A stretch of 34,451 nt of DNA from Acidobacteriota bacterium (GTDB taxonomy: Bacteria > Acidobacteriota > Terriglobia > Bryobacterales > Bryobacteraceae), in the NCBI GenBank assembly GCA_947470805.1, contig CANIVU010000095.1, positions 1-34,451 on the forward strand, in the 5' to 3' direction. The notes under the pieces were generated by a model, which saw nothing but the letters and a program-made list of their open reading frames with translations, did not search any database and was not told the origin of the DNA. The position numbers were made by a program, and so were the translations under genes. Below, one piece after another: positions 15,340-29,074 of this stretch; position 1 is the first letter of the stretch; each line of letters opens with the position of its first letter.

Positions 15340-15933
15340 CTAAGGCAGCTTCTTCTTACTCAACATCTCCCAGTGAATCCGGGCCACATCCCCCATATAA
15401 TCCTGGGGCGCCAACTCCGCCGCCCGCCGCGCATACACCTTCGAAGCCTCCCGCTTCCCCCGCGTCTCCTCATACAGCGCCAGATACAGATTCCCGTAAA
15501 AATTCCCGCCCCGCGAGTTCCCCGCCGCCGCGATCACCCGCTCCACGCTCCCCTCGCCCTTCCACAACGCGTGTAACTCCCGCATCGGAACCCGTGTATC
15601 TTCCTTGATCGGAATCAGCTTCTTCTGCGCGTCTTTGAAGCCGTCGATCCGCGCCGCGCACAACATATGCCACGCCGCGTTCTCAAAGTCCTCCGGATTC
15701 ACCGTCCGGTGCAGCTCAAACTGTGCCTTACAATCGGCGAACCGCCCGGCGTAATACAGCGAAATCCCCCGCTGCCAATGCTGCGGAGCCTGGTCCGGCA
15801 ACACCGCGATCACCTTATCAAACGCCGCTACCGACGCCGCGAAGCCGCCCTTCCGGAAAGCCTCTTCCCCTTGCCGCTGGAAGTCCACCGGCGCCTGCGC
15901 AAACAGCAAACCAACTAAGATAGCCTGTATCAT
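15340..15933 (-). CDS. Small exported TPR-like protein
   Basis: 197 residues. The N-terminus ([15 protein letters not shown]) is a short signal peptide. TPR-like helical pairs follow: [20 protein letters not shown] with [20 protein letters not shown], and a C-terminal one in [17 protein letters not shown]. These probably form a protein-binding solenoid in the periplasm. Its ATG overlaps the stop of the sigma-54 activator gene by four bases (15930-15933), so the activator and this protein are made together. The role is unknown. Confidence 0.75.
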
Positions 15934-17732
15934 CGTAACTCCAAGTTACTCATCAATCGATGTAAGTAGTTCGGGTGCAGATCCAACCGCTCGGCCGCTC
16001 CCGTCACGCTGCCACCGCTCGCCGCCAGCGCTTCCAGAATCAACTGTTTCTTCCGCTCGTTCAGCGCCGCGTGATAGCCCGTCGCCTCCCCGGCCGCCGG
16101 CGGCGCGGCCCGTTCCAATAACGCCTCCGGCAAGTCCTCCGGCAGCACCTGCTCGCTCACGCCCATCACCACCGCCCGCTCCAGCGCGTTCTGCAACTCC
16201 CGCACATTGCCCGGCCAGTCGTAGCGCAGCAGACACGCCCGCGCCTCCGGCGAAACCCCGTCCATCCGCCGCCCCATCTGCTGGGCGAACCGCGCCACGA
16301 AATAAGACGCCAGCAACGGCACATCCGCCAGCCGCTTCCGCAGCGGTGGCATCTCCACGCTCACCACGTTCAACCGGTAGTACAGGTCCTCCCGGAACCG
16401 CCGCTCCTTCACCGCCGCCGGCATGTCCACGTTGGTCGCCGCGATCACCCGGATGTCCAGCGGAATCACCCGCGTCCCGCCCAGCCGCTCCATCTCCCGC
16501 TGCTGCAGCACCCGCAGTAGCTTCGCCTGCGTCGTGATCGGCATCTCGCCCAACTCATCCAGGAACACCGTCCCGCCGTTGGCCACTTCCAGCTTCCCGC
16601 GCTTCTGCGCCACCGCCCCGGTGAAGGCGCCCTTCTCGTGCCCGAACAGCTCGCTCTCCAACAGGTTGTCCGATAGCGAAGCGCAGTTGATCGCCACAAA
16701 CGGCTGATTCGCCCGCGGGCTGTTCCGGTGGATCGCCTGCGCCACCAGCTCCTTGCCCGTCCCGCTCTCACCCAGTATCAACACCGTGGTCGGCAACGGC
16801 GCCACCCGCGCCACGAACCGGTAGACGGCCTGCATCGGCGCACTGTCCCCCACCATGTCGTGCCGCGCCACCAGTTGCTGTCGCAGCCGCGCCGTCTCTG
16901 CCTCGGCCTCTTCCCAACTCCGCGCCGCCTGCAAAGCCAACCCCGCCATCACCCCGGCCGCGCCAGCCAGCCGCAAATGGGCGTCGTCGTAGGCCGCCCC
17001 CTCCGCCCACAAGATCCCGAACGCCTTACCCGCCACTACCGGCGACGCCAGCACGGCGTCCCATGCCGCGGTCTGCTCCCCGCCGATTACCTTCTCCAGC
17101 AGCGCCCCATCAAACTCCGGCGCCTCCCCCTCCAACGCCATCGACCACGGCGCCTCCCCTAGTCCGTCAAAGTAGAGCGCGATCGCAAACGCCCGTCCCG
17201 GCAGCGCGCCCTGCAATGCCTCCAACAGCCGCCGCGCCACCGGAGCCACCCCGCGCTCCCCCTGCAGCGCCGTGCTGATGGCCAACAACGCCTCCAACTC
17301 CCGCGCCGTTCGCCCCTGCTGCTCGGCCTTCTCCCTCTGCGCCCGGCTCAGCCAACGGGTGACGCCGGACTGCACTATCGTCCGCCCGGCCGCCGTCCCC
17401 GCCCCCATCGCCAGGTCCCCAAACAGGAATACCGACCCGCCCAGCCGAACCTCATCGCCCTCCGCCAGCACCGCTTCTCGCACCGGCAACCCGTTGACAA
17501 AGGAGCCATTCCGCGATTCCAGATCCCGTAGCTTCACCCGGCCAAGCTCATCCCGCCACACCGCCGCGTGCTGTCGCGAAACACCCGAATCGAGCAGCGC
17601 CACCGTGCAAGCCCGGTCCCGCCCCAACAACATTTCCCCCGCCCCAACGGCGAATGTCTCCCCCAACCGGGGGCCCGCAATACAGATTAACTGGACCGGT
17701 TTCTCTCCCACGCCAAGCCGAGAATAGCACAC
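15930..17732 (-). CDS. FHA-domain sigma-54-dependent transcriptional activator (Fis family)
   Basis: 600 residues from a GTG with an AAGGGA ribosome-binding site. Residues of about 20-108 are an FHA domain, with GR at 37-38, SRQH at 52-55 and RNGSFVNG at 74-81; it binds phosphothreonine peptides. A GAF-like region follows (about 140-270). The central AAA+ domain is complete: Walker A GESGTGKE at 321-328, GAFTGA at 368-373 (the loop that contacts sigma-54), the Walker B region FLDELGEMP, and an arginine-finger region [11 protein letters not shown]. The last 45 residues form a Fis-type helix-turn-helix ([20 protein letters not shown]). There is no receiver domain, so control is probably by Ser/Thr phosphorylation signals rather than a two-component system. 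A sigma-54 promoter facing this gene lies at 17845-17863, suggesting self-regulation. Confidence 0.95.
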
Positions 17733-17748
17733 CTATCCCTTCGGATAG
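17733..17748 (-). promoter_or_regulatory. Hairpin overlapping the activator's ribosome-binding site
   Basis: A 6-bp perfect stem CTATCC/GGATAG with a GAAG loop on the minus strand. The loop and right arm contain the AAGGGA sequence that serves as Shine-Dalgarno for the GTG at 17732. Folding would hide part of the site, so translation of the activator could be kept low or regulated. The stem is short, so this may be chance. Confidence 0.35.
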
Positions 17749-17750
17749 TC

Positions 17751-17792
17751 CACCCGGCGCGCACCCTCACCAAACGGTGAGCACCGCCACCC
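17751..17792. promoter_or_regulatory. Candidate activator-binding cluster (CACC/GGTG half-sites)
   Basis: CACCC occurs at 17751-17755, 17762-17766 and 17788-17792, with a perfect palindrome CTCACC-AAAC-GGTGAG at 17766-17781 between them. It lies 54 bp before the -24 GG of the rightward sigma-54 site, a normal position for an enhancer of a sigma-54 activator. The + strand here is C-rich, so part of this could be compositional. Confidence 0.4.
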
Positions 17793-17844
17793 GCCGCACG
17801 CAGAAGATCTCCGTTTTTTCAACAACATACGCGCCGACCGCCGG

Positions 17845-17863
17845 TTGGCAACCCCCGTGCCAA
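17845..17863. promoter_or_regulatory. Near-palindromic sigma-54 (-24/-12) promoter between activator and exported-protein array
   Basis: On the minus strand the sequence TTGGCACGGGGGTTGCCAA matches the sigma-54 consensus TGGCACR-N4-TTGCW in nearly every position, with the invariant GG and GC separated by 10 bases. It would start transcription near 17836, about 100 bases before the activator gene. The arms are inverted repeats, so the + strand also has GG-N10-GC (TTGGCAACCCCCGTGCC). That weaker match would start near 17872, about 15 bases before the ATG at 17887. Confidence 0.7.
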
Positions 17864-17886
17864 TACAAAGGGCAAGGAGCAACACC

Positions 17887-18240
17887 ATGAAAACCACCTT
17901 TCTCATCCTCGCCGCCGCCACCCTTTCCGGGCTGGCCGCCGAATCGGTCAACTTCCCCTTCGAAGTCAGCGGGAAACAGATGCCCGCCGGGAAGTATGTG
18001 GTCCGCGATGCCGGGCCGAGTCACGCCCTTCGCATCTCGGAGGAAAAGACTGGCCACGGCTTCTTCGTGGTCGGCCCCACGGCCAAAGGCACTGCAAAAA
18101 TAATGCTCAACTTCAACCGCTACGGCGACGCATTCGTCCTGACCTCGGTCACCAACAACGGCGCCGTACTCAATCTGCCCAACTCCCGCCGGACCACAGA
18201 ATCGGCCACCGAGACCATCGCCGTCGCCGTTACCGACTAA
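17887..18240 (+). CDS. Small exported protein, array copy 1
   Basis: A 117-residue protein with a signal peptide (MKTTFLILAAATLSGLAAES) and a predicted small beta-sandwich. It carries the family signature VNFPFEVSGKQMPAGKYVVRD, which I know from many acidobacterial hypothetical proteins ('PF.F.v..k.mPAG.Y.v'). AAGGAGC provides a good ribosome-binding site; upstream in-frame starts lie inside the promoter and are rejected. It is the first of four related genes in tandem, about 80 % identical to copy 2. Its function is unknown; secretion and a putative sigma-54 promoter suggest an envelope or stress role, which is inference. Confidence 0.8.
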   Translation: MKTTFLILAAATLSGLAAESVNFPFEVSGKQMPAGKYVVRDAGPSHALRISEEKTGHGFFVVGPTAKGTAKIMLNFNRYGDAFVLTSVTNNGAVLNLPNSRRTTESATETIAVAVTD

Positions 18241-18256
18241 TTAAAGGAGCATCACC

Positions 18257-18610
18257 ATGAAAACCACCTTTCTCATCCTCGCCGCCGCCACCCTCTTCGG
18301 GCTGGCCGCCGAATCGGTCAACTTCCCCTTCGAAGTCAACGGGAAACAGATGCCCGCCGGGAAGTATTTGGTCCACGATGCAGGGACTCGTCACGCCCTC
18401 CGCATCTCGGAAGCAAAGACGGGCCACAGCTTCTTTGTGGTCGGCACCACGGCCAACAGCGCCGCCAAAACGATACTCAACTTCAACCGCTACGGCGACG
18501 CCTACGTCCTGACCTCGGTCACCAACAACGGCGCCGTGCTCACCGTGCCGAACTCTCGCCGGACCATTGAAACGGCCACCGAAACCGTCACCGTCGCCGT
18601 TACCGAATAA
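18257..18610 (+). CDS. Small exported protein, array copy 2
   Basis: A 117-residue paralogue of the preceding gene with the same signal peptide (MKTTFLILAAATLFGLAAES) and the signature VNFPFEVNGKQMPAGKYLVHD. By eye about 22 positions differ from copy 1. The differences cluster in the middle (residues 38-72) and at the C-terminus, while the signal peptide and the segment LTSVTNNGAVL are unchanged. It begins 16 bases after copy 1 behind AAAGGAGCATCACC. The function is unknown. Confidence 0.8.
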   Translation: MKTTFLILAAATLFGLAAESVNFPFEVNGKQMPAGKYLVHDAGTRHALRISEAKTGHSFFVVGTTANSAAKTILNFNRYGDAYVLTSVTNNGAVLTVPNSRRTIETATETVTVAVTE

Positions 18611-18622
18611 AGGAGCCACCCC

Positions 18623-19015
18623 ATGAACGCCAAAACCGCCATTCTCACCTTCGCCGCCGCCTGCGCCCTCTCGGCCGCCCCCGGCGACATCACCGCCAAC
18701 GTCCCCTTCCCGTTCGAATTCAACGGCAAGGCGATGCCGGCCGGCAACTACCAGATCCGTCCCTCCACGGACCGCCACTTTCTCGTAGCGATCCACGCCA
18801 AAGGGTCGATGTTCCTCTTCGCCGCCGAGCCCACCTCCGGCGTCACCATCGCCCAGAGCATCCTGCAATTCCAACCGGCGGCGGGCCGCTACGTCCTCTC
18901 CGCCATCGTCGACAAATCCACCGGCGCCTTCATGAAGCTCCCCGTGAGCCGCGCCGCCAAAGAAATGACCGCCCAGGCCACGCCCGTAACCGTACCCATC
19001 ACCGCCGCTGAATAA
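18623..19015 (+). CDS. Small exported protein, array copy 3 (divergent)
   Basis: 130 residues with a signal peptide (MNAKTAILTFAAACALSAAPG) and the shared signature NVPFPFEFNGKAMPAGNYQI. It is much more divergent than copies 1 and 2 but has the same strand order and a similar length. The RESF-like end is missing; it closes with SRAAKEMTAQATPVTVPITAAE. An AAAGGAGCCACCCC ribosome-binding site precedes the ATG, and it starts 12 bases after copy 2. The function is unknown. Confidence 0.78.
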   Translation: MNAKTAILTFAAACALSAAPGDITANVPFPFEFNGKAMPAGNYQIRPSTDRHFLVAIHAKGSMFLFAAEPTSGVTIAQSILQFQPAAGRYVLSAIVDKSTGAFMKLPVSRAAKEMTAQATPVTVPITAAE

Positions 19016-19026
19016 GGACAATCACC

Positions 19027-19344
19027 ATGAACCGCAGAATGCTCTTCCTCGCCATCGCCGCGGTCTCCGGACTGGCCGCGCAGACAGTCACCAGCCGCGT
19101 CACCGCGACGGTGCCCTTCCCCTTCGATTTCCAGGGAACCACCATGGCCGCCGGCCAGTACGAGGTTGTCCAGACCGCCAGCGCCTCCAACGGCCTGGTG
19201 TTTGAGAAGGCCGGTAACGGTTACTACTTCCGCGCCATGCAGGATGCGGGTACCGCGCTCGCCTACATCGTCAGCCGCACCCGCAAGCAGGTGGAACAGG
19301 CCCGGAACATGGCCCCGGAACGGGTCTACATCGCCGCCCGGTAG
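19027..19344 (+). CDS. Small exported protein, array copy 4 (divergent)
   Basis: 105 residues with a signal peptide (MNRRMLFLAIAAVSGLAAQ) and the signature ATVPFPFDFQGTTMAAGQYE, in which the usual Pro of 'MPAG' is Ala. It is the shortest copy and ends RNMAPERVYIAAR. TAAGGACAATCACC precedes the ATG, 11 bases after copy 3. The ybaK gene follows by 12 bases, so the array and ybaK are probably one transcript. The function is unknown. Confidence 0.75.
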   Translation: MNRRMLFLAIAAVSGLAAQTVTSRVTATVPFPFDFQGTTMAAGQYEVVQTASASNGLVFEKAGNGYYFRAMQDAGTALAYIVSRTRKQVEQARNMAPERVYIAAR

Positions 19345-19356
19345 TAAAATGGGGGC

Positions 19357-19836
19357 TTGGCCCTCACAAAGACCAATGCGATGCGAATTCTGGAGGGGAT
19401 GCAAATCCCCTTCCAGGTGCGTGAATACGAAGTGGACGAAGAGCACCTGGACGCGGTCACCGTGGCCGGCAAAGTCGGCCTCCCGCCCGAACAGGTCTTT
19501 AAAACCCTGCTGGTACGCGGCGACCGGAACGGCTGCTGCTTCGTGGTCATCCCCGGCAACATGGAACTGGACTTCAAGGCCCTCGCCAAGGCGAGCGGGG
19601 ACCGGAAGGTGGAGATGGTTCCGCTGAAAGAGGTAACGCCGCTCACGGGCTACAGCCGGGGCGGCGTTACCGTTTTGGGCGCCAAAAAAGAGTACCCGGT
19701 CTACGTCGACTTCACCGTAGAACTCTGGGACGTGATCTCCGTATCGGCCGGCCAGCGAGGAATCCAGCTGTTTATTGCACCGGCCGATTACCTGCGGGCG
19801 GTCCAGGGGACAACTGGAGAAATCGCCCGCTTTTGA
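19357..19836 (+). CDS. ybaK: YbaK/EbsC-type aminoacyl-tRNA deacylase
   Basis: 159 residues of the YbaK/ProX family, which hydrolyses mischarged Cys-tRNA(Pro) (trans-editing). The N-terminal KTNAMRILE matches the family start. The conserved catalytic lysine is in VFKTLLVRG (Lys49), with FVVIPGNMELDFKALAKA and LTGYSRGGVTVLG as further conserved blocks. The start is a TTG behind GGGGG; the in-frame ATG at 19381 would cut off part of the conserved N-terminus. Housekeeping function; its location after a secreted-protein array is probably incidental read-through. Confidence 0.92.
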   Translation: MALTKTNAMRILEGMQIPFQVREYEVDEEHLDAVTVAGKVGLPPEQVFKTLLVRGDRNGCCFVVIPGNMELDFKALAKASGDRKVEMVPLKEVTPLTGYSRGGVTVLGAKKEYPVYVDFTVELWDVISVSAGQRGIQLFIAPADYLRAVQGTTGEIARF

Positions 19837-25501: not shown

Positions 25502-27115
25502 TCAGTCCGGCATATACCTTAGGATCAGCAGCGTCAGGTCGTCCCGCTGCGGCTCCCCGCCGGTAAACGCCGCAATGTCGGCCTTGACGGCCTCGGTCAA
25601 CGGCCCCATGTCCAACCAGAAGTTTCGCTGCAACACGGCCACCAATCGCTCCGGCCCGTACATCTCCCGCGCCGCGTTCATCGCCTCCGACACGCCGTCG
25701 GTATAGAGCGCCAACAGGTCCCCGCGGCCCATCTGCAGCGCCGCGTCCTTCCAGTTCCCCTCTTCCAACATCCCCACCGGCATCCCCGTCGGCGCCAGTT
25801 CGTAAACTTCGCCCGTCGGCTTCACCAGCAACGGGGAACAGTGCCCGGCGTTGGCCCACTGCATTGGCGCGTCCCGATAGATGGACGCCAGGAAAATGGT
25901 GGCATATTTTGCCCCGTTCGTTCGTCCCAGCAGGAAGCGGTTCAGGCGGTCCAGAATCACGGCCGGCGGAATCTGCTCGGCCGTCGACATAACGAAGGCT
26001 CCTTGCAGCAGACTGGCCAATAGCGCGGAGCTGACGCCTTTGCCGGACACGTCGGCCATGACGATGTCGTAACGGCCATCGCCGGAGGGCAGAATGTCAA
26101 AGTAATCCCCGCCCACCAGCTTGCTGGGGATCGACAGCCCGGCGGCGCGCAGCCAGCCGGTTTGCGGATACTCGGACGCCTCCGGCAGCAGGTCCTGCTG
26201 GATCGTCTGGGCGATCCGCAGTTCCTGCTCCATCTTCTGTTTCTTTCGCTCCTGGTCAAGCAGACGGGCGTTTTCCAGAACGAACGACGCTTCAATCGCC
26301 AGCGATTGCACCAGGTCGCGGCTGGTTGAGGTCAGCTCGGCATGGTGCTGCGTCGAGTCCAAATAGAGCAGCCCGATCGAATCGGCGATGGTGCCGACGA
26401 GCGCCGTCTCCGATAGATCTCCGGCGCGCACCTTGATCAACGGCACGCACAGCACGCTGCGCAGCGAGAGGTTCAGGATCGAAGAATCCAACCCGCTGAT
26501 CCCGGAATCAAAGCGCATGCTCAACAGCTCACTGCGGCTCCGTAACGCCTCGTGCAGCACCTTCGATGGGATCTCCAGCCCTTCGGAAAGCGCCTTACCG
26601 CCGGCGCCGCGCGCGATTCTCGTCTCCAGCCCATCGTCGGTGGTCAGCAGCAGAAAGCCACGATCGCAACTGGTGATATCGAGCGCCGCGTCCACCACCG
26701 AGGCCAGAACCTGATCGATCGACAGCGCCCCCTGCAGCGACCGCGCTACCTCCAACATCGACCGCAACTTCCGCAGCCCGCCGTGGTGCGCCTGCGTCGG
26801 CATCGCCGCCGGAGACTCCAGCACAAACGTCAGTTCGTAGGAGTCGTCGACTCCGAAGCGGATCACGTCGCCGGAGCGCAGCATGTGCGACTGTTCCTTG
26901 ACGCCGTTGACGTCGATCCCGTTGCGAGACCCGGCGTCTTCTACGACGAACTCGGCGCCCTCGCGGCGAATGACGGCGTGGTTGCGGGAGGCACGGTTGT
27001 CCCGCAGCACCAGATGGTTTTCCGGACTGCGGCCGATGCGAAAGGGCATCGGATCGAGCGGCACGCGAAACGCCGCCGTCCCCGGTGGCTTCACCTGCAG
27101 CGCCGCCGTCGTCAT
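25502..27115 (-). CDS. FHA-GAF-SpoIIE-type serine phosphatase
   Basis: 537 residues without a membrane segment. An N-terminal FHA domain covers about 22-98 (FRIGRSPENHLVLRDN, ASRNHAVI, DAGSRNGIDVNG). A GAF domain covers about 125-285, and a short coiled coil (LLDQERKKQKMEQELRIAQT) about 290-312. The PP2C/SpoIIE catalytic domain occupies the rest, with the metal-binding GGDYFD, MADVSGKGVSSAL, WANAGHCSPLLV and LLALYTDGVSEAMN. Phosphatases of this design commonly act on anti-anti-sigma factors in partner-switching pathways. Its start overlaps the Fur-family gene's stop by four bases. It is the second FHA protein in the window, and no Ser/Thr kinase is visible nearby. Confidence 0.95.
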   Translation of the reverse strand: MTTAALQVKPPGTAAFRVPLDPMPFRIGRSPENHLVLRDNRASRNHAVIRREGAEFVVEDAGSRNGIDVNGVKEQSHMLRSGDVIRFGVDDSYELTFVLESPAAMPTQAHHGGLRKLRSMLEVARSLQGALSIDQVLASVVDAALDITSCDRGFLLLTTDDGLETRIARGAGGKALSEGLEIPSKVLHEALRSRSELLSMRFDSGISGLDSSILNLSLRSVLCVPLIKVRAGDLSETALVGTIADSIGLLYLDSTQHHAELTSTSRDLVQSLAIEASFVLENARLLDQERKKQKMEQELRIAQTIQQDLLPEASEYPQTGWLRAAGLSIPSKLVGGDYFDILPSGDGRYDIVMADVSGKGVSSALLASLLQGAFVMSTAEQIPPAVILDRLNRFLLGRTNGAKYATIFLASIYRDAPMQWANAGHCSPLLVKPTGEVYELAPTGMPVGMLEEGNWKDAALQMGRGDLLALYTDGVSEAMNAAREMYGPERLVAVLQRNFWLDMGPLTEAVKADIAAFTGGEPQRDDLTLLILRYMPD

Positions 27116-27576
27116 TGTCCAGCCGCTTCGCGCAGCTCCTGATCCCGCAACATCTGGCAGTTCGGGCAGTACCCGCCGATCTCGGTACGCACCAACAAGA
27201 TCTCAAACCCGAAGGTTTCCTTCACCTGTTTGCGAATGATCGCCAGCGGCTCGCCGAAATACTCTTCAATTTTGCCGCACTGCAGGCAGACGACGTGCGC
27301 ATGCTCGCGCTTCATCCTGGTCTCGTAGTAGTGCTGGTCGCCGCCGTGATGCAGCAGGTCCAACTCGTCGACGAGCCCTTCCATCTTCAGCATCTTCAGC
27401 GTGCGGTAGACCGTCACGCGATTCAGTTTCGGATCCTTCTCCCGCGCCAGATGAAACAGGCTTTCGGCGTCCAGATGTTTGCCCGATTTATCAATCAAAT
27501 CCAGCAGAATCTGGCGCTGGCGGGTCATGCGGACGCCCCGTTGCTTCAATGATCCTGTCGTAGTCTGTCCCGGCAT
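27112..27576 (-). CDS. Fur-family metal- or peroxide-responsive repressor
   Basis: 154 residues from an ATG with a strong GAGGGGAG ribosome-binding site; the longer frame to 27729 overlaps the divergent gene and is rejected. The N-terminal winged helix includes RMTRQRQILLDLI and LNRVTVYRTLKMLKMEGLV. The metal-binding half has REHAHVVCLQCGKIEEY, with a His-x-His and the first CxxC, and GGYCPNCQ gives the second CxxC of the structural zinc site. It could be Fur, PerR or Zur; the sequence alone does not decide. It is divergent from the biotin carboxylase gene with only 49 bases between starts, and heads the operon with the SpoIIE phosphatase, the zinc peptidase and the NHL protein. Confidence 0.93.
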   Translation of the reverse strand: MPGQTTTGSLKQRGVRMTRQRQILLDLIDKSGKHLDAESLFHLAREKDPKLNRVTVYRTLKMLKMEGLVDELDLLHHGGDQHYYETRMKREHAHVVCLQCGKIEEYFGEPLAIIRKQVKETFGFEILLVRTEIGGYCPNCQMLRDQELREAAGQ

Positions 27577-27625
27577 CGCTCCCCTCAATGTAGCAAAACG
27601 GGGGCCTGCTAAAATCGAAGGGCCC

Positions 27626-29074
27626 ATGGTGCAAAAAATCCTGGTCGCCAATCGCGGCGAAATTGCCGTTCGCGTTCTCCGCGGGATCCGGGAAGCCGGG
27701 TTCACCGCGGTCGCCATATTCACGCCCATCGATCGCGGGGCCCTTCACTTGTCCCATGCCGATGAGGCCTACCCCGTCGACTCCTACCTGAACCCGGACG
27801 CCATCCTCGCCGCCGCCCGCCGCGCCGGCGCCACCGCGCTGCACCCCGGCTACGGATTCCTCAGCGAAAACGCGGATTTCGCGCAGTTCTGCGCCGATGC
27901 GGGTGTTCTGTTCATCGGGCCAACGGCTCACGCCATCCGCTCCCTGGGTTCGAAGACCGCCGCGCGCGACGTGGCCATTGCGGCCGGAGCGCCTGTCGTA
28001 CCGGGCACCGATGGCCCAGTGACCGACATCGCCGAAGCCCGCCGCGTGGCGTCCCAGATCGGCTATCCCGTTTTAATCAAGGCCGCCGCCGGAGGTGGTG
28101 GCAAGGGAATGCGCCTGGTGGAGAAGGAGAGCGAATTGGAGAGCGCTCTTCGCGATGCCTCAAGCGAGGCCGAACGCAGCTTCCGCTCTGGTGAGGTCTA
28201 CATTGAAAAAGCGCTGATCCATCCGCGCCACATCGAAATCCAGATCTTTGGCGACAACCACGGGCACCTCATTCACTTGGGCGAACGGGAATGTTCCATC
28301 CAGCGCCGGCACCAGAAGGTGATTGAGGAGTGCCCGTCGCCGCTGGTGGCGCGCAACCTGCCCATGCGGCACGCCATGGGCGAGGCCGCGCTCAAGGTGG
28401 CCCGCGCCGCCGGCTACACCAACGCCGGCACGGCGGAGTTTCTGGTGGACGCCGACAGTAACTTCTACTTCCTGGAAATGAACACCCGCCTGCAGGTTGA
28501 GCATCCGGTGACAGAGTTAGTAACATCGGTTGATCTGGTGCAGATGCAGATTGAAGTGGCCTTCGGCGCCGAGTTACAAAGGAAGCAGGAAGATATCACC
28601 TGGCGCGGCGCGGCCATTCAGTGCCGGTTGTATGCCGAGGATCCGGCCAATCAGTTCTTCCCATCGCCGGGGCGGATCGATCGACTACGCATGCCCTCCG
28701 GGCCGGGAATCCGGCTCGACTCGGGCGTTTACGAAGGGTGGACCGTGCCGATGGATTACGACCCGTTGCTGGCCAAGCTCTGTGTGTGGGCCGAGGACCG
28801 GCCACGCGCAATTGCCCGCATGGCGCGCGCTCTGGGCGAGACAGAGATCCTGGGCATCGCCAACAACGTCGCCTTCTTCCGCCAGCTACTGCAAGACCCG
28901 GACTTCCAATCCGGCCAGATCCACACCGGGTTCCTGAAGTCCTTCGAGTACGCGCCGGATACGACATTGACCGAATCAGAACTCGAAGCCGCCATCGCCA
29001 TCCTCGCCTCGGCGGAAGCCCCGGCGGCCGCTGCGGCGCCTACCGCCCTCCGCTCCAACTGGGGCCGCCGATGA
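27626..29074 (+). CDS. accC: Biotin carboxylase (acyl-CoA carboxylase subunit)
   Basis: 482 residues. It uses ATP and bicarbonate to carboxylate biotin on the carrier protein. The start KILVANRGEIAVRVLRG is the classic biotin carboxylase N-domain. LHPGYGFLSEN, the glycine-rich ATP-grasp loop LIKAAAGGGGKGMRLV (150-165) and EMNTRLQVEHPVTE (284-297, with the catalytic loop) are all intact. It is slightly longer than E. coli AccC (about 450), with an extra C-terminal tail. The ATG at 27626 is preceded by GAAGGG and an A-tract; the longer upstream frame runs into the Fur gene. It overlaps the biotin carrier gene by four bases (29071-29074). No carboxyltransferase gene is in the window. Confidence 0.95.
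   Translation: MVQKILVANRGEIAVRVLRGIREAGFTAVAIFTPIDRGALHLSHADEAYPVDSYLNPDAILAAARRAGATALHPGYGFLSENADFAQFCADAGVLFIGPTAHAIRSLGSKTAARDVAIAAGAPVVPGTDGPVTDIAEARRVASQIGYPVLIKAAAGGGGKGMRLVEKESELESALRDASSEAERSFRSGEVYIEKALIHPRHIEIQIFGDNHGHLIHLGERECSIQRRHQKVIEECPSPLVARNLPMRHAMGEAALKVARAAGYTNAGTAEFLVDADSNFYFLEMNTRLQVEHPVTELVTSVDLVQMQIEVAFGAELQRKQEDITWRGAAIQCRLYAEDPANQFFPSPGRIDRLRMPSGPGIRLDSGVYEGWTVPMDYDPLLAKLCVWAEDRPRAIARMARALGETEILGIANNVAFFRQLLQDPDFQSGQIHTGFLKSFEYAPDTTLTESELEAAIAILASAEAPAAAAAPTALRSNWGRR

Follow-up and report, generated by a model that had tools for sequence, protein, structure and literature searches.

A 34,451-nucleotide (nt) stretch of DNA from an Acidobacteriota bacterium of the Bryobacteraceae (the window; CANIVU010000095.1, one contig of an 8.7-Mb, 220-contig genome) contains a gene for a sigma-54 activator with forkhead-associated (FHA), AAA+ and Fis-type domains. 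This gene is divergent from an array of four tandem genes for small, presumably exported proteins. A palindromic -24/-12 element lies between them. The locus is probably a divergent module of the pspF/psp type, with an activator, dyads, a sigma-54 promoter that faces the array and an activator gene that represses itself. Across related loci, the conserved predicted promoter faces the array. This reverses the emphasis of a preliminary description of the same sequence, which gave priority to the activator-facing reading and suggested self-amplification. The palindromic site, the FHA activator and the four tandem genes of that description are otherwise all found where it placed them.

In the proposed module, the activator would bind two dyads of the form NNNNCC-N4-GGNNNN beside its own start. 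Perhaps aided by a bend at an element resembling a binding site of integration host factor (IHF), the activator would loop to sigma-54 polymerase and open it at the array-facing -24/-12 element. Transcription of the activator gene itself would start from a weak sigma-70 promoter, the upstream part of which is overlapped by the first dyad (upstream activator site 1, UAS1), probably leading to self-repression. The clade of the window shows a derived state, in which the -24/-12 element is palindromic and can be read as a strong activator-facing site as well.

Orientation of the -24/-12 element

The divergent pair recurs in eight genomes of the genus and at 19 further loci of other genera. The paired loci, in which an FHA-type regulator is divergent from an array-family gene, number 27 and come from 14 genera: eight from the same genus, nine from other genera of the taxonomic family and ten from other taxonomic families. 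The wider sampling covers 60 array-family loci from other genera of the taxonomic family and then 60 from other taxonomic families. Of the former, 8/60 have a divergent FHA-type activator next to the family gene, with L166 in addition; of the latter, 10/60 do. L166 has an AAA+ activator in which no FHA was detected; it is retained with a guessed activator start. L170 (activator downstream on the same strand) and L204 (FHA without AAA+) are excluded. In L159, only the FHA is visible since the contig ends. L182 has approximately 1.4 kb between the two genes, of which only the 400 nt upstream of the family gene are scored.

The -24/-12 scores come from a matrix of base frequencies written by hand (maximum 20.2). 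GG-N10-GC faces the array in 8/8 genus loci. The array-facing score is 8.4 in the window, 6.7 and 10.2 in its two nearest relatives (L110 and L111, respectively) and 11.3 to 16.5 in the other five. An array-facing score of at least 10 is found in 20 of the 27 paired loci (6/8 in the genus, 5/9 in other genera, 9/10 in other families). An activator-facing score of at least 10 is found in 4 of the 27 (3/8, 0/9 and 1/10, respectively), and three of these four loci are the window, L110 and L111, the only genus loci with an activator-facing element above 10. L072, the next relative after L110 and L111, has no activator-facing site. The two orientations differ with p = 2e-5 by Fisher's test, although the loci are not phylogenetically independent. 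The ten loci from other families were fetched after the array-facing idea had been noted and were scored with an unchanged matrix; nine have an array-facing site and one an activator-facing site. By these predictions, the symmetry that allows reading in both directions arose secondarily in a small clade made up of the window, L110 and L111.

The array-facing sites go with the pairing. Among unpaired family genes, 11/112 (98 loci) have a forward site of at least 10; in the controls, 2 genes have such a site on the opposite strand, and reversed strings give 2 and 6. The paired and unpaired sets (20/27 vs. 11/112) differ with p = 5e-11 by Fisher's test, again for loci that are not phylogenetically independent. 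Sigma-54 control of the whole array family was considered and rejected, as a forward site of at least 10 is present in these 11 of the 112 unpaired genes. It is very improbable that the activator has no action on the array and that the pairing reflects conserved gene order alone. Most family members examined have neither such a neighbour nor a sigma-54 site, as would be expected in that case. The repeated occurrence of divergent FHA-type activators in the two samples of 60, with L166 in addition, argues against it, as do the association of sigma-54 sites with pairing and the small number of Sigma54_activat matches (26, some weak) in the 8.7 Mb of the window genome. A sigma-54 circuit that joins the activator to the array, as initially proposed, is likely.

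In the window, both strands of 17845-17863 carry GG-N10-GC, and the sequence (TTGGCAACCCCCGTGCCAA) is a perfect 6-N7-6 inverted repeat. Both strands were scored, as the preliminary description had suggested. The minus-strand, activator-facing element (TGGCACGGGGGTTGCC, 17847-17862, predicted +1 near 17836) scores 16.2, the highest score on either strand of the window, in agreement with that description. The plus-strand, array-facing element (TGGCAACCCCCGTGCC, 17846-17861, GG at 17847-17848 and GC at 17859-17860, predicted +1 near 17872) keeps the GG-N10-GC that had been pointed out; its score of 8.4 is modest, and five other plus-strand sites in the window score higher. In dinucleotide shuffles of the 187-nt intergenic stretch, 16.2 is reached in 0/100 and 8.4 in 2/100.

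TGGCAA reversed is TTGCCA, so a -12 box that ends in NTGCCA makes a -24/-12 element readable on both strands. A -24 TGGCA opposite a -12 NTGCCA gives a palindrome almost for free. On balance, the evidence leans towards the strong activator-facing site being a silent, chance by-product of overlapping consensus halves, with the array side alone in use. The -12 box NTGCCA suffices for such an outcome. L149, from another genus, is likewise symmetric, and there the array-facing reading scores higher (14.9 vs. 9.2). A silent site is not required to be the better match, yet each of the three genomes of the window clade matches better in the activator-facing reading. The by-product interpretation is compatible with the divergent module.

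A single palindromic sigma-54 promoter that serves both sides is unlikely. In such an arrangement the activator would amplify itself and the two directions would be in competition for a single polymerase site. In its favour, no other site in the window scores as high as the activator-facing one, which is high in the whole clade (16.2, 13.8 and 13.2), all three genomes keep GG-N10-GC on both strands, and E. coli has documented bidirectional sigma-70 promoters at which polymerases compete (PMC12825309, excerpt). Bidirectional use is not congruent with the five other genus loci, where the activator-facing site is absent (scores below 3), or with the loci outside the genus, of which 1/19 has an activator-facing score of at least 10. 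In addition, a sigma-70-like -10 adjoins the activator start, and such palindromes are no commoner in the genome than the reversed pattern. Without mismatch, TGGCACRNNNNTTGC has 12 occurrences in the 8.7-Mb genome, including the window site; with one mismatch, it is not enriched genome-wide (134 + 114 matches vs. 166 + 179 for the reversed pattern). A genome-wide class of palindromic sigma-54 promoters is not supported either, with TGGCA-N7-TGCCA at 7 places vs. 16 for the reversed pattern.

It is quite improbable that, in the window clade, the palindrome serves chiefly to bind a protein, either a repressor or the activator itself, and is not a promoter. The perfect inverted repeat would suit such a function; the palindrome nevertheless sits where L072 has its asymmetric -24/-12 element, with the -12 C at 26 and 27 nt from the ATG in the two loci. 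A more restricted form of bidirectional use is doubtful. In this form, the array-facing promoter of the window clade would have turned into a true bidirectional sigma-54 promoter, with one activator opening both sides and with autorepression replaced by positive feedback limited by competition. If true, it would mirror, for sigma-54, the symmetric promoters of sigma-70, and present-day relatives would still show the ancestral state.

Dyads and the promoter of the activator

The window contains two perfect 6-N4-6 dyads, both predicted activator sites: UAS1 (CTATCC-CTTC-GGATAG, 17733-17748) and UAS2 (CTCACC-AAAC-GGTGAG, 17766-17781), which lies 33 bp from UAS1. When the window and two relatives are aligned without gaps over 187 nt, 14/16 positions are identical in UAS1, 10/16 in UAS2, 15/18 in the IHF-like stretch, 16/20 in the -24/-12 element and 23/23 in the leader. 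The stretches between have 6/17, 8/30 and 6/14 identical positions. Relative to these gaps, conservation is clearly higher in UAS1, the IHF-like stretch, the -24/-12 element and the leader, and moderately higher in UAS2.

Across the paired loci, the core of the dyads is CC-N4-GG. L074, L075, L076 and L077 have the form TTAACC-N4-GGTTAA, and L075 has a second dyad with 5 matching arm positions. The consensus TATCCNNNCGGATA is matched at 9 or more of 11 positions in 23/27 loci (8/8 in the genus, 5/9 in other genera, 10/10 in other families). In 15/27 loci, a second match (at least 8 positions) lies 19-23 or 32 bp from another, roughly two or three turns of the helix; the corresponding distance is 33 bp in the window and L111. 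These dyads are likely sites of the activator. Between the dyads and the promoter, the window has an IHF-like element (TTTCAACAACATA, 17817-17829, plus strand) that matches 7/9 positions of the IHF consensus. In L074 and L076, AATCAACAACTTA matches 9/9 positions and is also located between dyads and promoter. Separately, L074, L076, L075 and L077 contain GATCC-N4-GGATC inside the predicted leader, downstream of the array-facing promoter and ahead of the first array gene. This dyad is a candidate for a third activator site or an RNA hairpin.

A predicted sigma-70-like -10 hexamer for the activator, TATTCT, is located at 17721-17726 on the minus strand. Hexamers of this class (TA[CT]A[CA]T or TATTCT) occur on the activator strand, no more than 75 nt from the FHA match, in 16 of 26 loci (the paired loci minus L182), with 0.36 expected. 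By set, they are present in 7/8, 5/9 and 4/9 loci; on the opposite strand, they are present in 0/26. The window TATTCT sits 6 bases from UAS1, which points to autorepression. From this arrangement, autorepression of the activator is more likely than self-amplification. As a general rule, self-amplification from an activator-facing sigma-54 promoter is not supported: such a site reaches a score of 10 in the four loci given above, three of them in the window clade, L072 lacks it, and most loci have the -10 class on the activator strand.

Several points weigh against the divergent module. The scoring matrix was written by hand, without training. The 120 sampled loci are the best profile matches, and the profiles included paired members, so paired loci are favoured. 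Five of the last ten loci come from one genus, and counts over the 27 loci of 14 genera are counts of non-independent samples. The array-facing element is weak in the window and in L110 and L111, where the opposite orientation is stronger, and L126, L155, L158, L159 and L186 (2.9 to 8.9) have no convincing array-facing element. The dyad consensus was written after all loci, including the later set, had been read; it is descriptive and non-blind. L138, L155, L158 and L159 reach fewer than 9 of 11 matches to it. In L074, the best match is the leader dyad, downstream of the promoter, and the upstream dyads reach 8. In the 23 loci with a dyad, the observed score is reached by up to 9% of single-locus shuffles. 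With one mismatch, CTATCC-N4-GGATAG occurs at 7 places in the genome vs. 4 for the reversed pattern. The IHF-like element reaches 9/9 in three g1 loci only, 8 in five others and 7 or 6 elsewhere. The -10 class was also defined after the loci had been read, with TATTCT included because of the window clade, and the 4/9 later loci in which it holds are all from one genus. The activator start proposed below, at 17711, would be nearly leaderless.

Activator, array and further targets

The activator gene (P0001) is located at 15930-17711 on the minus strand. The open reading frame (ORF) as listed runs to 17732 (600 aa), and this start is probably too early. GTG at 17711-17709 (593 aa) is preferred because it fits the starts of orthologues and the predicted -10 better. 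If the -10 at 17726-17721 is right, translation would begin at this GTG, since 17732 precedes the start of the transcript. The domains are those of the preliminary description. The FHA domain (residues 35-98 of the 600-aa ORF, 17439-17630) matches PF00498 with 60 bits, the sigma-54 interaction AAA+ domain with GAFTGA (16356-16856) matches Sigma54_activat (PF00158) with 239 bits, and the Fis-type helix-turn-helix (residues 562-592, 15957-16049) matches HTH_8 with 23.5 bits (cut-off 22). In the GAF-like middle of the protein, the Pfam match to GAF is below its cut-off. GAFTGA and Walker A (GE[S/T]GTGKE) are intact in the window activator and its 6 aligned relatives (7/7). The genome has one match to Sigma54_CBD (rpoN), with 183 bits.

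For the N-terminal half of the activator, the nearest named relatives are in Candidatus Sulfopaludibacter sp. SbA3 (Acidobacteriota, Bryobacterales) and an Acidobacteria bacterium. Activator relatives with 97, 93 and 72% identity, the second truncated by the end of its contig, are all divergent from array-family genes. More distant relatives, with 40-56% identity over the aligned parts, occur in four further genomes of the genus and are also divergent from array-family genes.

The phosphothreonine-binding residues of FHA domains correspond to R38, S52, H55, N75 and N80, all present in the window activator. Across 27 FHA sequences (the 26 paired loci with an FHA and L170), R38, the Arg of GRD, is conserved in 26, S52 in 20, H55 in 27, N75 in 15 and N80 in 27. 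Control of the window activator by a Ser/Thr kinase through the FHA domain, an earlier proposal, is possible, and phosphopeptide sensing is plausible in the window; neither appears common to the activator class, because the Ser of SxxH is replaced in 7/27 sequences and one relative has an FHA with an internal deletion. A further FHA match is located at L072 3275-3472. In the window, 25502-27115 on the minus strand encodes an FHA-GAF-SpoIIE-type phosphatase that adjoins a FUR-family gene (27112-27729); this phosphatase is a possible partner of the activator. A TPR-like protein gene (15340-15933, minus strand) overlaps the activator stop and is perhaps cotranscribed with it; all of its TPR matches are below cut-off.

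The four array genes are located on the plus strand at 17887-18240 (P0005, 117 aa), 18257-18610 (P0002, 117 aa, 81% identical to the first), 18623-19015 (P0003, 130 aa) and 19027-19344 (P0004, 105 aa). The four tandem genes divergent from the activator are as initially described; the next gene on the strand, at 19357-19836, is corrected to a tRNA-editing-domain protein by Pfam. A similar ORF follows the array in L110, L111 and L072. The array proteins are presumably exported, judging by eye from their N termini. None of the four has a Pfam match at its cut-off. Array protein 4 lacks approximately 27 middle residues relative to its 132-aa relatives in L110 and L111. In G205 (L110 4141-4304), the first array gene is cut short, with most of its length gone. 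Recombination between copies is a possible cause, suggested by the 81% identical tandem pair of genes 1 and 2 in the window. The third array gene of G149 (L072 6647-7066) has its own upstream sigma-54-like site, with a score of 11.8.

A profile of the four array proteins has matches in 125 of 200 genomes of the taxonomic family (E 0.001), and a wider array-family profile has matches in 61 of 297 genomes of a phylum sample (E 1e-8). Among 12 sampled genomes of the genus, six match and six do not; G203 and G205, from outside that draw, also carry the array. No Pfam or NCBIfam model is shared by the family: of 15 members scanned, one matches PMI_typeI_C at E 0.0002 and the rest have nothing below 0.06.

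At least one unlinked gene, which encodes a presumably exported HExxH protein, is probably also under the control of the activator. Without mismatch, CTATCC-N4-GGATAG occurs at three places in the genome. At one of them, C2 (L243/L306), the dyad centre is separated by 106 bp, as in the window, from a -24/-12 element with a score of 12.0. This element faces the gene for a 188-aa protein with a hydrophobic N terminus and the motif HELCH, whose sole Pfam match, YgjP-like, is below cut-off (E 0.21). By eye, CTATCTGATTCGTGAG, an imperfect dyad (3/6 arm positions), lies 33 bp from the C2 dyad and resembles the second box of L072 at 13/16 positions; beyond it, TTTAACAACAACTTAG resembles the IHF-like element. 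G203 has the same arrangement before a similar protein (104 bp, element 9.2). At the third place (C16), the element scores 12.7 and is 278 bases off and inside an ORF.

A search run regardless of the array, for the dyad followed by 75-105 bases and a promoter core, gives 33 places in 25 of 237 genomes and 0 with the reversed control. A rough control with a spacer one base longer and a gap of 70-100 gives 14 places in 13 of 237 genomes, with the window not included, so approximately 14 of the 33 are expected by chance. From the 33 places, 13 were chosen by eye for CTATCC-like dyads or several matches per genome and were fetched; the best element is at least 11 in 8 and lower in 5. In L295, the element (18.8) separates a gene for a YHS/heavy-metal P-type ATPase from a divergent gene for an FHA-GAF-Sigma54_activat protein, whose HTH_8 match falls slightly short of the cut-off. 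Given this pairing, the targets of FHA activators with this dyad probably extend beyond the array family.

Two further sites were observed. In L296 near 2579 (G035), the dyad-promoter pattern precedes a short frame with SGG after approximately 26 residues, which by eye resembles a double-glycine leader. In L078 5822-5836 (G000:C133:13821-13835), an exact sigma-54 consensus faces a 148-aa protein with a signal-like N terminus.

Comparison with known systems

In E. coli, pspF is read from a sigma-70 promoter that is overlapped by activator sites, which leads to autorepression. The window resembles pspF/pspABCDE in an activator gene divergent from a probable sigma-54 operon with upstream activator sites and, perhaps, in an IHF element and an autorepressed sigma-70 promoter of the activator. 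The corresponding features of the window are predicted: tandem dyads, the array-facing sigma-54 site (8.4), the -10 hexamer and the IHF-like element (7/9, variable in other loci). The two systems differ in that PspF has no FHA domain and that the targets in the window are small, presumably exported proteins. An IHF-dependent loop is described at PpspA (PMC6710252, excerpt), and PspF is held by PspA (PMC4641369, excerpt).

Desulfovibrio vulgaris has genes for one-component enhancer-binding proteins that, like the window activator, are divergent from sigma-54 promoters; their regulons were rebuilt by comparison and from shared binding motifs (PMC4641369, excerpt). Their targets are different and they belong to another phylum, and the text of that paper does not contain the term FHA. 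The E. coli bidirectional promoters have a sequence symmetry that lets polymerase bind in two orientations (PMC12825309, excerpt). That symmetry is in the -10 element, in contrast to the -24/-12 symmetry of the window, and the terms sigma54 and sigma 54 are absent from the text of that paper.

An informal positive control for a sigma-54 site beside a divergent activator is present in the same genome. In L079 6582-6596 (G000:C106:22581-22595), TGGCACAGCGCTTGC, an exact sigma-54 consensus, lies between an AAA+ activator gene and a divergent gene block. This activator is presumably RtcR-like, and the known system for comparison is the rtcR/rtcBA RNA-repair module. The sensor of RtcR is of the CARF type, not FHA. 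FHA-domain enhancer-binding proteins of Myxococcus xanthus, a member of a different phylum, were reportedly described by Jelsbak et al. in 2005.

Acidobacteriota are abundant soil bacteria. Among the matches listed, their regulation is little mapped in the literature and no description of this FHA-activator/array module is found; the text of PMC12316311 does not mention Acidobacteri, forkhead, FHA, bidirectional, divergent or exported. For FHA-type sigma-54 activators as a class, the comparison supplies a binding motif that can be tested (TATCC-N4-GGATA), a promoter architecture and initial targets. It also ties the array family, whose small and presumably exported members have no Pfam or NCBIfam model in common, to a regulator, and the relatives of the window form a natural series for testing how a sigma-54 promoter becomes symmetric. 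The architecture is of a known kind; judging by the matches listed, this class of activators, with its dyad and the array family, is a new member of that kind.

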